Below, piece after piece: positions 4,384 through 7,427 of a stretch of 45,857 nt of DNA (within the stretch, counting starts at the first letter, position 1; each line of letters opens with the position of its first letter). Where the stretch lies: positions 1-45,857 of the IMG/VR virus record IMGVR_UViG_3300025890_000043; one strand, given 5' to 3'. Source of the stretch: a virus. The notes under the pieces are model-generated. The model made no database searches. It saw nothing but the letters and a program-made list of their open reading frames with translations, and was not told where the DNA came from. A program made the translations under genes and the position numbers.

Positions 4384-4845
4384 TTAATTAAGGAGCTTTG
4401 GCTCCCCCTCCTTCATACTTTCGTTTAGTTTATCAATTATAGACTCTACATCAACAGCCTTCTTAACCTCGACAGTTGTAGTCTTGGTTTCTTTCTTTTC
4501 TACTTCTTGCTTGGAATAGGTGGATCTATAGTTAAATTTATTAACCATCATGAATGCATATAGTGATGTATTAAATGATTTATTATCTAGGTTATCCCTA
4601 CCTATCTGTATCCAGTAAGCTTCAGAAGCTTGTATACCTAACTCAATGGTTCGCTGGAAATCACCCTTTCTTTCGTCTTTTAGCCAGCGGTAGAACGTAG
4701 ACTTATGAATACCAAGGAACCTGCATACTTCAACAACGGTAGACCCACAAGCAAACATCTCAATTACTTTCTTCTTGTTTGCTGTGGTCCACACACTGTT
4801 GTGCACTACCTTGCCTTCCCTACGTTTTACAGGGTTAACAGCCAT
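4384..4845 (-). CDS. terS: Terminase small subunit-like DNA-binding protein
   Basis: This is a 153-residue protein. Residues 22-55 form a helix-turn-helix: NKKKVIEMFACGSTVVEVCR, then LGIHKSTFYRWLKD. The rest is helical (FQRTIELGIQASEAYWIQIG), with a charged C-terminal tail containing Lys/Glu/Thr/Val repeats. This HTH plus helical core matches phage small terminase subunits, which recognise the packaging site and feed DNA to TerL. The position upstream of terL in the same operon supports the call. AAAGGA lies about eight bases before the ATG. A transcriptional regulator with the same HTH fold is the main alternative. Confidence 0.75.
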   Translation of the reverse strand: MAVNPVKRREGKVVHNSVWTTANKKKVIEMFACGSTVVEVCRFLGIHKSTFYRWLKDERKGDFQRTIELGIQASEAYWIQIGRDNLDNKSFNTSLYAFMMVNKFNYRSTYSKQEVEKKETKTTTVEVKKAVDVESIIDKLNESMKEGEPKLLN

Positions 4846-4870
4846 TTAAATATCCTTTGTTAAATTTTAA

Positions 4871-5071
4871 TTATGATCTTCGCGATCTGCCGCTACCGCT
4901 TGGACCTTTGCCTGCTCCACCTCTATCCCCTGGGCCACCTCGTCCACCTCCTTTACTACCACTACTCATTGGCTTGGGTTTAGGTTTTCCAGGAACTTTA
5001 CCAGTTCCTTTACATGTAGGACAGGTTCTTGAACCCATCTTTGATCCTGCTATTTTTGCTGGTCCACGCAT
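4871..5071 (-). CDS. Gly-rich protein with a CPTCKGTGK zinc motif (66 aa)
   Basis: This is the first gene of the leftward packaging operon. I place the start at the ATG at 5071 because AAGGAG sits six bases upstream, although the frame is open further upstream. Residues 17-25 contain CPTCKGTGK, one half of a DnaJ-type zinc-binding repeat (CxxCxGxG). The second half is a Gly/Arg/Ser/Pro tail (GGGRGGPGDRGGAGKG). A single CxxC could bind zinc only as a dimer. Arg/Gly-rich tails often bind nucleic acid. No function is known to me. Confidence 0.7.
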   Translation of the reverse strand: MRGPAKIAGSKMGSRTCPTCKGTGKVPGKPKPKPMSSGSKGGGRGGPGDRGGAGKGPSGSGRSRRS

Positions 5072-5090
5072 TTTAATCTCCTTTGTAAGG

Positions 5091-5160
5091 TGGGACTGTA
5101 CCAACAGAAGGGAGAAGGGACCCTCAACAAGGAGGGGAGAGATGTGCTGGTACAATCCCA
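5091..5160 (-). promoter_or_regulatory. Long inverted repeat in the leader of the packaging operon
   Basis: The arms TGGGACTGTACCAA (5091-5104) and CTGGTACAATCCCA (5147-5160) are inverted repeats matching at 12 of 14 positions, separated by 42 purine-rich bases. They lie between the predicted promoter -10 box (5175-5180) and the ribosome-binding site of the first leftward gene, so in mRNA they would form a stem in the 5' leader. Likely roles are mRNA stabilisation, translational control or a protein-binding site. Confidence 0.5.
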
Positions 5161-5174
5161 AATTCATTACTTAT

Positions 5175-5183
5175 ATTATAGCA
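5175..5183 (-). promoter_or_regulatory. Extended -10 promoter for the leftward packaging genes
   Basis: On the minus strand the sequence reads TGCTATAAT, a perfect TATAAT -10 box with the extended TG-N element. A -35 match is weak (GAGACA at 5200-5205, 19 bases away), as is common for extended -10 promoters. Transcription would start near 5168 and run leftward through the inverted-repeat leader into the first gene at 5071. A host sigma70-type holoenzyme would be the user, in line with the absence of a phage RNA polymerase. Confidence 0.45.
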
Positions 5184-5269
5184 TATTGGGGGGGTAGAGT
5201 GTCTCACTTTTAATCTGTTAGCAAATTTATTAGCCAGGCACCTAAGAAAATCCTTACCAATTTTGTCCA

Positions 5270-5400
5270 TATAGTAATATAAATATATATATATTATAAT
5301 AAGGGAGGGGGTTATCTGTGGATAACTTTATGATTACCCTTTATAATCATACATTTAACCTACTTTTTACCTGTGGATAACCCTGTGTATAACTTTTGAA
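5270..5400. other. Candidate replication origin: A+T-rich tract with DnaA-box matches
   Basis: Two exact DnaA boxes read TGTGGATAA at 5317-5325 and 5372-5380. A third, TGTGTATAA (5384-5392), differs by one base. All three are in the same orientation. A run of A/T (5276-5302) lies beside them, and an 8-bp perfect hairpin TATGATTA/TAATCATA (5329-5336, 5344-5351) lies between the boxes. The cluster sits where transcription diverges, the usual site for an origin. With no phage DNA polymerase visible, recruitment of host DnaA is plausible. No direct proof is available from sequence. Confidence 0.5.
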
Positions 5401-5615
5401 TAACTTTTTATAAAAAATATACCCCCCAAAAAATTTGGAATCAAAAATTTCTAGGTCTCTTAGCCCCGGACACTGCCTACACGCAACGCACTTTCCAAAA
5501 TTTTGCCGCTAAGCCAGATATGACAATACTCCATATAGGTAAACATAATATAATATTCCATAGGGGGACAATAACCAATAGATATACCCCCATCCAATTT
5601 CAATTCTACACCTCC

Positions 5616-5640
5616 AGGGAACACTAAAAACATGCTCCCT
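5616..5640 (+). repeat. Conserved hairpin element, copy A
   Basis: AGGGAACA, a nine-base loop with an A5 core, then TGCTCCCT. The arms pair over eight positions with one A-C mismatch. The same arms and loop length recur at 7198-7222 (plus strand) and 39404-39428 (minus strand). Each copy points in the direction of transcription of the genes after it, which suggests a phage-specific regulatory site. Confidence 0.6.
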
Positions 5641-5739
5641 AGCTATATACAAAGAATAACCTATACGTAGGGGTACCTAAAGCTTAATAAACTCTTGGGA
5701 TCAGCTTAATGTTGTGTTAATGCCTTTTTTTATTTATAT

Positions 5740-6330
5740 GTATGGGCGGGTGGACCGGGACTCCTAAACCTGGATCGCTCGGGTGCGCCTCTGGGAGTAC
5801 CTTCAGAATATTCGAATATGCTTATATTACAGGGTTAGTATATTAGAAAGCACTTATATAGGTAGTCAATTTGCAATTCGGGTCTGGGTACGCTATATTA
5901 AATGCATGGGAACGAAAGACCTTCCCAAAGACCGCATAAAGTAGTCGCAGTCTACGGTTACCCCACGCGCCAGAGAAAAAAAGCGGGGATCATACCTCAA
6001 GGTAAGTCAAGCGATATGCTTTGTGCTAGTGAGTGCCAGCAATGAGTAACGCCCCATAATTCTCAAGGGATAGGGAACAACGTTAAACGCTCGCGACAAT
6101 GTACAAGGGTGACGATATCGCCACAAGCCGGAGTTATACAAGCGAAAGCGACTATAGCAATTCCCTAGTAACACGTGGATATTAGCAAGGGGTTCGATAA
6201 GACCAAAATGGGCTGTAATACCGATAAGTATTTAAAATGACTTAGCGGGGCTTGAGCCAGAGTTAGTGTTCAGCACTATTCTCAAGCCAGTTCGTGACCC
6301 GAAAGGGAACTGATATGGTAATGGGAACAA
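5740..6330 (+). ncRNA. Candidate large structured non-coding RNA
   Basis: No ORF of note covers this stretch, and it is visibly richer in G+C than its flanks. Many helices can be drawn on the plus strand. TGGGAA/TTCCCA (5907-5912, 5922-5927). CCCC/GGGG (5961-5964, 5985-5988). TACC-TCAA-GGTA (5993-6004). A long-range TAGGGAA/TTCCCTA (6071-6077, 6161-6167) encloses GTGACG/CGCCAC (6109-6124, one mismatch) and a GC-GAAA-GC tetraloop (6142-6149). GGCTTGAG/CTCAAGCC (6249-6256, 6281-6288) is topped by TAGTG/CACTA. AGTT..CCC-GAAA-GGG..AACT spans 6289-6311. GNRA loops on this strand only indicate rightward transcription. Size and complexity recall ornate phage RNAs such as GOLLD or ROOL, but I cannot confirm membership. 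An mRNA leader is the alternative. Ends are approximate. Confidence 0.5.
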
Positions 6331-6352
6331 TGTTATTTGTGAGAATCACACT
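6330..6352 (+). repeat. Left arm of a 23-bp inverted repeat flanking an ORF
   Basis: This arm matches the reverse complement of 6917-6939 at 22 of 23 bases, with core TGTGAGAATCACACT identical over 15 bases. It lies between the structured RNA and the ORF at 6387. Part of the arm also forms a local hairpin GAATCAC/GTGATTC (6343-6349 with 6356-6362). Confidence 0.75.
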
Positions 6353-6386
6353 TCCGTGATTCATACAAAAACGGAGCACCGCAACG

Positions 6387-6893
6387 ATGGAAATCATCAA
6401 AAATGGAAAAGACCTCGGCACGGCAATCAAACGCGCAGTAAATCAAGCACTTAAGTGGCAAGATAAAGTGCAAGAACTGTTCGTGTCGTCCGCATGGCAC
6501 TACTCTGAGCATGGCGATAGTACATACCTATCTATGCTTGTGAAGGGTATTACAAAGTGCGACGGAGTTAATAAGCAAAAACTTATCGGCTTCGTGTCGG
6601 AGGTATGCCAAGTTAACTGGGATAAAGAAAACTTACGCTTCAAGAAAGCAAAAAAGTCTGAGTTCGAGTTTGATATGGTTACACTTCATGCCCGCAAATG
6701 GTACGACTTCGAGGTGGAATCATCGCTAAGTATCTGGCAGTTAAAGAAACTTATCGAGAAAACCACGGCAGATATCGAGAAGCACTCTGATGAAGCGCGA
6801 GATCAAGTCATCGAAGCATATGACGCAATCGGCGAACTCAATCAGACTATCGAAAGAATTGCCAAAATGGAGGAGTGGTCAGAAGCGGCATAG
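6387..6893 (+). CDS. Conserved phage early protein of unknown function, codon usage like the capsid gene
   Basis: This is a 168-residue protein. It begins MEIIKNGKDLGTAIKRAVNQ, has an HGDSTYLSMLVKG segment near residue 42, WDKENLRFKKAKK near 78-90 and WYDF near 105, then ends in a long helix. The order of these pieces resembles a family seen in many podoviruses (MxLIKxGKxLxxAI, HGDxxxLxxL, late W-Y-D/E-F), whose role is unknown to me. Codons end in C or G more often than in neighbouring early genes (CTC, CGC, GGC, TTC), much like the capsid gene, which suggests high expression or a different origin. The gene is enclosed by a 23-bp inverted repeat and follows the structured RNA, which may regulate it. 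Confidence 0.9.
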   Translation: MEIIKNGKDLGTAIKRAVNQALKWQDKVQELFVSSAWHYSEHGDSTYLSMLVKGITKCDGVNKQKLIGFVSEVCQVNWDKENLRFKKAKKSEFEFDMVTLHARKWYDFEVESSLSIWQLKKLIEKTTADIEKHSDEARDQVIEAYDAIGELNQTIERIAKMEEWSEAA

Positions 6894-6900
6894 TCAGCGG

Positions 6901-6926
6901 GATTCACACTGGAAACAGTGTGATTC
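6901..6926 (+). terminator. GNRA hairpin just after the 168-aa ORF (terminator-like or processing site)
   Basis: TCACACTG (6904-6911), loop GAAA (6912-6915), CAGTGTGA (6916-6923) form a perfect 8-bp stem starting about 10 bases after the stop codon, extended by GA/TC. No U-tract follows, so it is not a classical intrinsic terminator. It may stabilise the 3' end of the message or be an RNase processing site. It overlaps the right arm of the flanking inverted repeat. Confidence 0.5.
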
Positions 6927-6939
6927 TCACAGATAACAT
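6917..6939 (-). repeat. Right arm of a 23-bp inverted repeat flanking an ORF
   Basis: This arm is the inverted copy of 6330-6352 (22 of 23 bases match). Together the arms enclose a 610-bp unit holding one ORF. In RNA, the two arms could pair over long range, closing the message for the 168-residue protein into a loop, in competition with the local hairpins in each arm. Confidence 0.75.
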
Positions 6940-6954
6940 CATAAGAGGAGGAAA

Positions 6955-7095
6955 ATGTACTACGATAAAGAGGTAGGCGTGTGGATTGAAGTTATACCCG
7001 CACAAAAAACGCCTAGAGTTAAGTCTAATATTAAGACTAAACGAACTAAGTCTAGTCATGTCCCGCCTAGGATAGCGAGGCAGAGATTTAGATAG
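6955..7095 (+). CDS. Small basic protein (46 aa)
   Basis: The ATG at 6955 is preceded by an excellent ribosome-binding site (AGAGGAGG). The product begins MYYDKEVGVWIEVIP and has a strongly basic C-terminal half (Lys/Arg with Thr/Ser, ending RIARQRFR). The basic tail suggests nucleic-acid binding. It is the last gene before a hairpin-rich spacer and lies inside the block bracketed by hairpin-element copies A and B. No family is recognised. Confidence 0.7.
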   Translation: MYYDKEVGVWIEVIPAQKTPRVKSNIKTKRTKSSHVPPRIARQRFR

Positions 7096-7358
7096 TAATT
7101 CCGGTAATCAGTCCTGAGTATGACTGTCAATAACTGCTCCTGAGTTGTAACCTACCGTACCCTGTGGGTACATACTACTAACCCCTGCTATATGTCTAGG
7201 GAACACGTTTTTCATGCTCCCTGCGACCTTGTGCGGGATATTCTGAGGTCATTCTGTTATGCCAATTGGATTGGTTGTGATGAATATCACAGTAATATCT
7301 CTTAGCGTGTGCGCTACGCTGTACGTCACGCTGTAATAATAAAAACAAGGAGATTAAA
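7096..7358 (+). promoter_or_regulatory. Hairpin-rich spacer upstream of the second early block
   Basis: This spacer of about 260 bases has no gene but contains GTACCC-TGT-GGGTAC (7157-7171), the conserved hairpin element B (7198-7222), TGTGAT-GAAT-ATCACA (7276-7291), and overlapping GCGTG/CACGC and AGCGT/ACGCT stems near 7303-7335. It ends in a strong AAGGAG ribosome-binding site. It probably acts as a regulatory leader or transcription control region. No clear -35/-10 pair was found. Confidence 0.45.
7198..7222 (+). repeat. Conserved hairpin element, copy B
   Basis: AGGGAACA, loop CGTTTTTCA, TGCTCCCT. The arms are identical to copy A (5616), in the same orientation. The downstream bases CTCCCTGCGACCT also nearly match the minus-strand copy near 39.4 kb (CTCCCTGGGACCT). 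Copies A and B bracket the RNA, inverted-repeat and ORF block as direct repeats. Confidence 0.6.
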
Positions 7359-7427
7359 ATGGATGTATTTGTTATGTACTCGCTTATGATATCTTGCTCA
7401 ATACTGGTACTTGTACTGTTCTCATGA
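7359..7427 (+). CDS. Tiny hydrophobic peptide (22 aa), coupled to the next gene
   Basis: The ATG at 7359 follows a textbook AAGGAG at the proper distance. The peptide begins MDVFVMYSLM and its second half (ISCSILVLVLF) is hydrophobic enough for one membrane span. Its stop overlaps the next ATG (ATGA), so it may serve as a leader peptide that loads ribosomes for the downstream gene, as a small membrane toxin or host-interaction peptide, or both. Confidence 0.55.
   Translation: MDVFVMYSLMISCSILVLVLFS

Follow-up and report, generated by a model that had tools for sequence, protein, structure and literature searches.

In phage T7 the early mRNA arises from a sigma70 promoter, has a long untranslated leader and carries RNase III duplexes by its first genes. 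The locus analysed here resembles it in two respects, a sigma70-like promoter where the early genes begin (a match in sequence only) and a duplex of about 20 bp that adjoins the first gene. The RNase III sites of T7 are local hairpins, whereas the duplex found here is long-range and encloses the gene, and the T7 leader is not known to be a multi-helix RNA that covaries. Natural RNAs as large as the one considered here are few, and the phage examples are mostly unexplained. GOLLD and ROOL constitute the comparison set for large structured phage RNAs (PMC12286853). The RNA described here shares with both that it is large, non-coding, rich in helices and found in a phage. However, GOLLD and ROOL are frequently located near tRNA genes, whereas the present RNA has no tRNA island; moreover, unlike them it immediately precedes a gene of one early family and extends into that gene, which is enclosed by a helix. 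The put RNA of phage HK022 is likewise a structured RNA with which an early phage transcript begins (PMC9378689), although put is far shorter and antitermination by the present RNA would be hypothetical.

The window, by which we mean the whole stretch of 45,857 nucleotides, is a 45.9-kb contig of a marine virus of bacteria. It encodes a SU10-type portal, and its TerL gives weak matches to cultured phages, including VpV262 (Zobellviridae) and CVT22. The terminase and structural genes run leftward and the early and replication genes rightward; the 1.2-kb gap between the two sets contains three DnaA boxes, a conserved block and the RNA region, and the folded RNA is predicted to open the first early message. 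The layout is as follows.

5713-5804, no strand assigned: conserved DNA block of about 90 bp, upstream of the promoter and outside the predicted RNA
5871-5899, plus strand: sigma70-like promoter TTGCAA-17-TATATT (sequence match), start expected near 5906
5906-6386, plus strand: predicted large structured non-coding RNA or 5' leader of about 480 nt, from comparison of related loci
6330-6352, plus strand: upstream arm of a long-range helix, from complementarity and covariation
6336-6369, plus strand: local hairpin competing with the long-range helix
6387-6893, plus strand: 168-aa gene, phrog_1448 by profile match, inside the long-range helix
6917-6939, plus strand: downstream arm of the long-range helix, from complementarity and covariation

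The preliminary description had placed the RNA at 5740-6330. Since position 5740 falls inside the conserved block and the promoter follows that block, the RNA probably starts near 5906; the earlier 5' border is thereby given up, 5740-5804 being part of a separate DNA block, and at the other end the RNA reaches the 168-aa gene at 6387. One helix partner lies even beyond the gene, at 6917-6939. The suggestion that the RNA could be a leader of the 168-aa gene is physically correct, as it lies directly upstream and runs into the gene, and on the plus strand no terminator-like site was found between the two. The reported contrast in composition with the flanks is real and modest (GC 0.41-0.49 versus 0.30-0.37 just upstream). 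The conserved block can be aligned in nearly all related loci, including ones with a diverged RNA and gene, and is possibly a packaging, end or regulatory site; its sequence pattern also served to scan for further loci. A promoter-like sequence follows the block at a distance of 41-99 nt in 17 of 17 loci, in most of them as the top-scoring one, and where no small gene is inserted the -10 element and the ATG are 464-670 nt apart. The DnaA boxes (5317, 5372 and a one-off at 5384, together spanning 5317-5392) are the only ones in the window and adjoin an A+T-rich stretch (5270-5420), which gives this part an origin-like appearance.

Related IMG/VR loci were gathered by searches with the 168-aa protein and with TerL and form a graded series. 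Three of them (L003-L005) are more than 99% identical to the window over 5000-7400. In L006 and L007 the flanks are about 95% identical and the segment corresponding to about 5959-6238 is rewritten, L097 has 73% identity across the RNA, and further groups have the conserved block, the gene and the layout in common with the window. In addition, the region recurs with 98.8% identity on a contig (L137) from a metagenome-assembled genome; this contig was binned in an uncultured Dokdonia genome, which is either a binning error or a hint of the host. The candidate RNA measures 438-679 nt across 17 related viral loci. Four loci (L098, L101, L102 and L104) have an extra ORF of 82-102 aa past the first promoter, conserved in pairs; a second promoter-like sequence precedes the RNA in L098 and L104 and is weak in L102 and L101, and the RNA parts of these four were taken as 438-571 nt.

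By comparison of related sequences, 5906-6386 is a large, multi-helix, non-coding folded RNA. The lack of coding capacity claimed before was borne out, there being no plus-strand ORF of at least 60 aa in 5740-6386, and no conserved reading frame was found in the RNA interval across 17 related loci. Taken singly, the sequence folds only moderately better than shuffles (z of -2.8 for the plus strand and -2.5 for the minus strand), and some relatives fold no better than theirs; because both strands fold better than shuffles, the single sequence does not prove the strand, whereas the comparison does. In RNAalifold tests of nine sets against column-shuffled alignments the plus strand gave z values of -7.9 to -1.9, and its consensus fold was at or below every shuffle in eight of the nine. 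The minus strand also scores in this test, as expected from helix complements, yet the consensus energy of the plus strand was the lower one in all nine sets, in agreement with the rightward RNA that had been proposed.

Compensatory changes in homologues, the evidence that the preliminary description had called for, were found in the helix that encloses the gene, in two local hairpins (5929-5953 and 6249-6288) and between the loci L125 and L135. The leaders of the latter two are about 95% identical except for one rewritten block of 45 nt, in which both hairpins persist with new stems (GATCA/TGATC becomes GGCG/CGCC, and CGCTAT/ATAGCG becomes GCACCA/TGGTGT). Stems are thus rewritten between near-identical phages. 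The local elements are the following.

5929-5953, plus strand: 5' hairpin, stem 5929-5935/5947-5953, loop AUAAAGUAGUC, covaries
6142-6149, plus strand: GC-GAAA-GC hairpin, kept in L097 and absent in L007
6187-6320, plus strand: 3' domain, source of covariance model R1, matches RNAs of the second group
6221-6248, plus strand: hairpin 6221-6228/6241-6248, present in consensus folds
6249-6288, plus strand: 8-bp stem with nested hairpin, conserved, covaries
6298-6307, plus strand: CCC-GAAA-GGG hairpin, shared with L097 and with most second-group loci

The rows of the short alignments (A7, A8 and A14) were excised manually from the loci, and their arms were picked with the complementarity known, a choice that the slid and shuffled controls address in part only. 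A further alignment (A15), in which three rows were improvised, was set aside and underlies none of the results. The stem with nested hairpin at 6249-6288, already singled out before, is both conserved and covarying: 98% of the cells in nine sequences are paired, with 17 two-sided changes, a result reached in 0 of 500 shuffles, and the slid controls gave 24-39%. For the hairpin at 5929-5953 the figure is 96% paired (4 of 500 shuffles as high); within the RNA L137 differs from the window by just two changes, and both are in this stem. The loop of the hairpin at 6221-6248 is replaced by a longer hairpin in L007. As to the GNRA loops that were noted initially, CCC-GAAA-GGG recurs in L097 and in the majority of second-group loci, whereas GC-GAAA-GC recurs in L097 and not in L007. 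Comparison lends no support to the 7-bp stem proposed between 6071-6077 and 6161-6167: it can be drawn in the window, but L007 lacks an equivalent and L097 forms it imperfectly.

A covariance model built from the window's own group alone (R1, 6187-6320) was used to search 343 kb. It matched four RNAs of the second group, all where expected and on the expected strand, three of them with E below 0.01 (L129, 5e-4; L105, 2e-3; L115, 5e-3; L065, 0.08). Run without filters on the remaining groups it gave no significant match, so for these groups homology of the RNA is unsupported by sequence and structure, and so is a single common fold.

Searches against Rfam at gathering thresholds, with the window and ten relatives, yielded no family, GOLLD and ROOL included; at E up to 10 for the window region and up to 1 for eight relatives neither of these two appeared. 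The earlier statement that the RNA is not recognisable as either one therefore agrees with the Rfam covariance models. When 50,697 phage records were searched by blastn, neither the region nor the RNA of a relative gave a match, and no description of such an RNA was found among open-licence papers. Because relatives retain the folds under changed sequence and no Rfam family fits, the sequences probably represent a new RNA class, a suggestion made before. The present RNA can be placed clearly within the infection programme and comes with a gene family attached to it.

The helix that encloses the 168-aa gene (6330-6352 with 6917-6939) is new here and had been missed in the preliminary description. 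Arms of at least 18 nt occur at similar places in 14 of 14 loci tested, in each case above all 300 shuffles, and the length of the helix ranges from 20 to 24 nt. Over 12 loci 95% of the cells are paired and 14 of 20 pairs show two-sided changes (0 of 500 shuffles), the covariation is 0.64 versus 0.26 in shuffles, and the slid controls were paired for 34-44%. No comparable flanks were found around 37 other genes of the window. When each arm is compared with the reverse complement of the other, the differences comprise 15 that are compatible with G-U pairing, 2 A.C and 10 transversions; the 15 sit in three columns and hence represent fewer independent events. A mobile-element origin of the inverted repeat was considered and rejected, as it occupies the same place with covarying sequence across groups. 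One could further suppose that the inverted repeat and its neighbours are protein-binding or replication sites in the DNA and that the RNA folds are incidental, given that the DnaA boxes (5317-5392) and the conserved block adjoin; in view of the G-U bias of the arm differences, the plus-strand preference, the covariation of the helices and a promoter pointing into the region, we regard this as very improbable.

In the loci examined each arm can instead fold into a hairpin of its own, which allows two states, and a regulatory switch fits the pairing equally well. The arm at 6330-6352 would then pair either locally, by the ribosome-binding site, or with 6917-6939, the state being chosen by a ligand or by the 168-aa protein itself. 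A weak match to the SAM-SAH riboswitch (RF01727) at 6340-6378 would suit such a translational control, and as in that riboswitch a small hairpin is followed by GGAGCA just before the gene. However, at 22.8 bits the match falls far short of the gathering score (40), it is obtained only with gaps in conserved portions of the aptamer, and a switch would leave the 430-nt folded part superfluous; we consider it improbable.

The gene that follows the RNA belongs to phrog_1448 in every group tested (profile E of 6.8e-19 for the window, and of 7.7e-4 or better in five further groups), and its distant homologues are located at the early left end of cultured Autographiviridae genomes. The AlphaFold2 model of the 168-aa protein has a mean pLDDT of 79 and a pTM of 0.58; the predicted structure found no fold match in the PDB, and the protein profile no significant sequence match there.

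The reading that we favour, tentatively and by analogy with T7, is that of a structured leader of the first early transcript, which an RNase III-type enzyme would cut at the long helix; we rate it somewhat short of probable. A host sigma70-type promoter at 5871-5899 is predicted to start the first rightward early transcript, of which the first 430 nt or so would fold into the large multi-helix non-coding RNA, as comparison supports, and the helix of 20-23 bp would loop out the phrog_1448 gene, as its covariation supports. RNase III cuts duplexes in T7 early mRNA and in pre-rRNA, and by analogy this two-turn duplex may be a cutting site of that type, parting the folded RNA from the protein message. 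From its position alone we infer, with less weight, that the folded part might act in cis by protecting the early transcript as it emerges and by setting the expression of the first early gene, while its stems appear to change fast with the shape kept. The scheme provides a concrete and testable model for the shaping and cutting of the phage's first transcript.

The size (438-679 nt), the many helices, the rewriting of stems with retention of shape and a possible release at the helix could also point to action in trans. A released RNA of about 430 nt would then accumulate as a free structural particle, as do GOLLD and ROOL, which form RNA-only nanocages, or would serve as a decoy that draws off a host RNA-binding factor or a defence enzyme, with the 168-aa gene as mere neighbour or as protein partner. 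Against this, in every group the RNA immediately precedes a gene of the one family, as would suit a role in cis, the window has no tRNA genes, and an abundant or oligomeric form would be hypothetical; we think it rather unlikely. The broader proposal of a new class of large phage RNA, constant in shape and quickly changing in sequence, joined to the first early gene by a helix that encloses it and acting in trans as particle or decoy at the onset of infection, seems to us unlikely to a similar degree. Alternatively, the nascent RNA might bind the host RNA polymerase and allow it to read through early-operon pauses and terminators, since HK022 put acts from early transcripts (PMC9378689) and the present RNA lies at the start of one. 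That put is far shorter, and that a small part alone of the present RNA is kept between groups, makes antitermination a slim prospect.

An enclosing helix was not found around the first ORF of VpV262 or around three Autographiviridae homologues, and the same test on the homologue of Vibrio phage G1 gave a score of 26.5 (p 0.007) with arms at other positions. The genome of the cultured phage VpV262 likewise opens with about 1 kb in which no genes are annotated, ahead of the first early ORF (L134, 1-1033), and in Vibrio phage G1 an inverted repeat of 27 nt surrounds the small gene gp13, upstream of the phrog_1448-like gene (L132, about 2060-2500). About 345 bp just before the small terminase gene (L003, 3109-3454) are present in L003, L006 and L007, whereas the window (4841-4846) and L004 are without them. 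The region as a whole is flanked by two copies of AGGGAACAC-N6-CATGCTCCCT (5616-5640 and 7198-7222), and directly past the downstream helix arm there is a 46-aa ORF with a ribosome-binding site (6957-7097).
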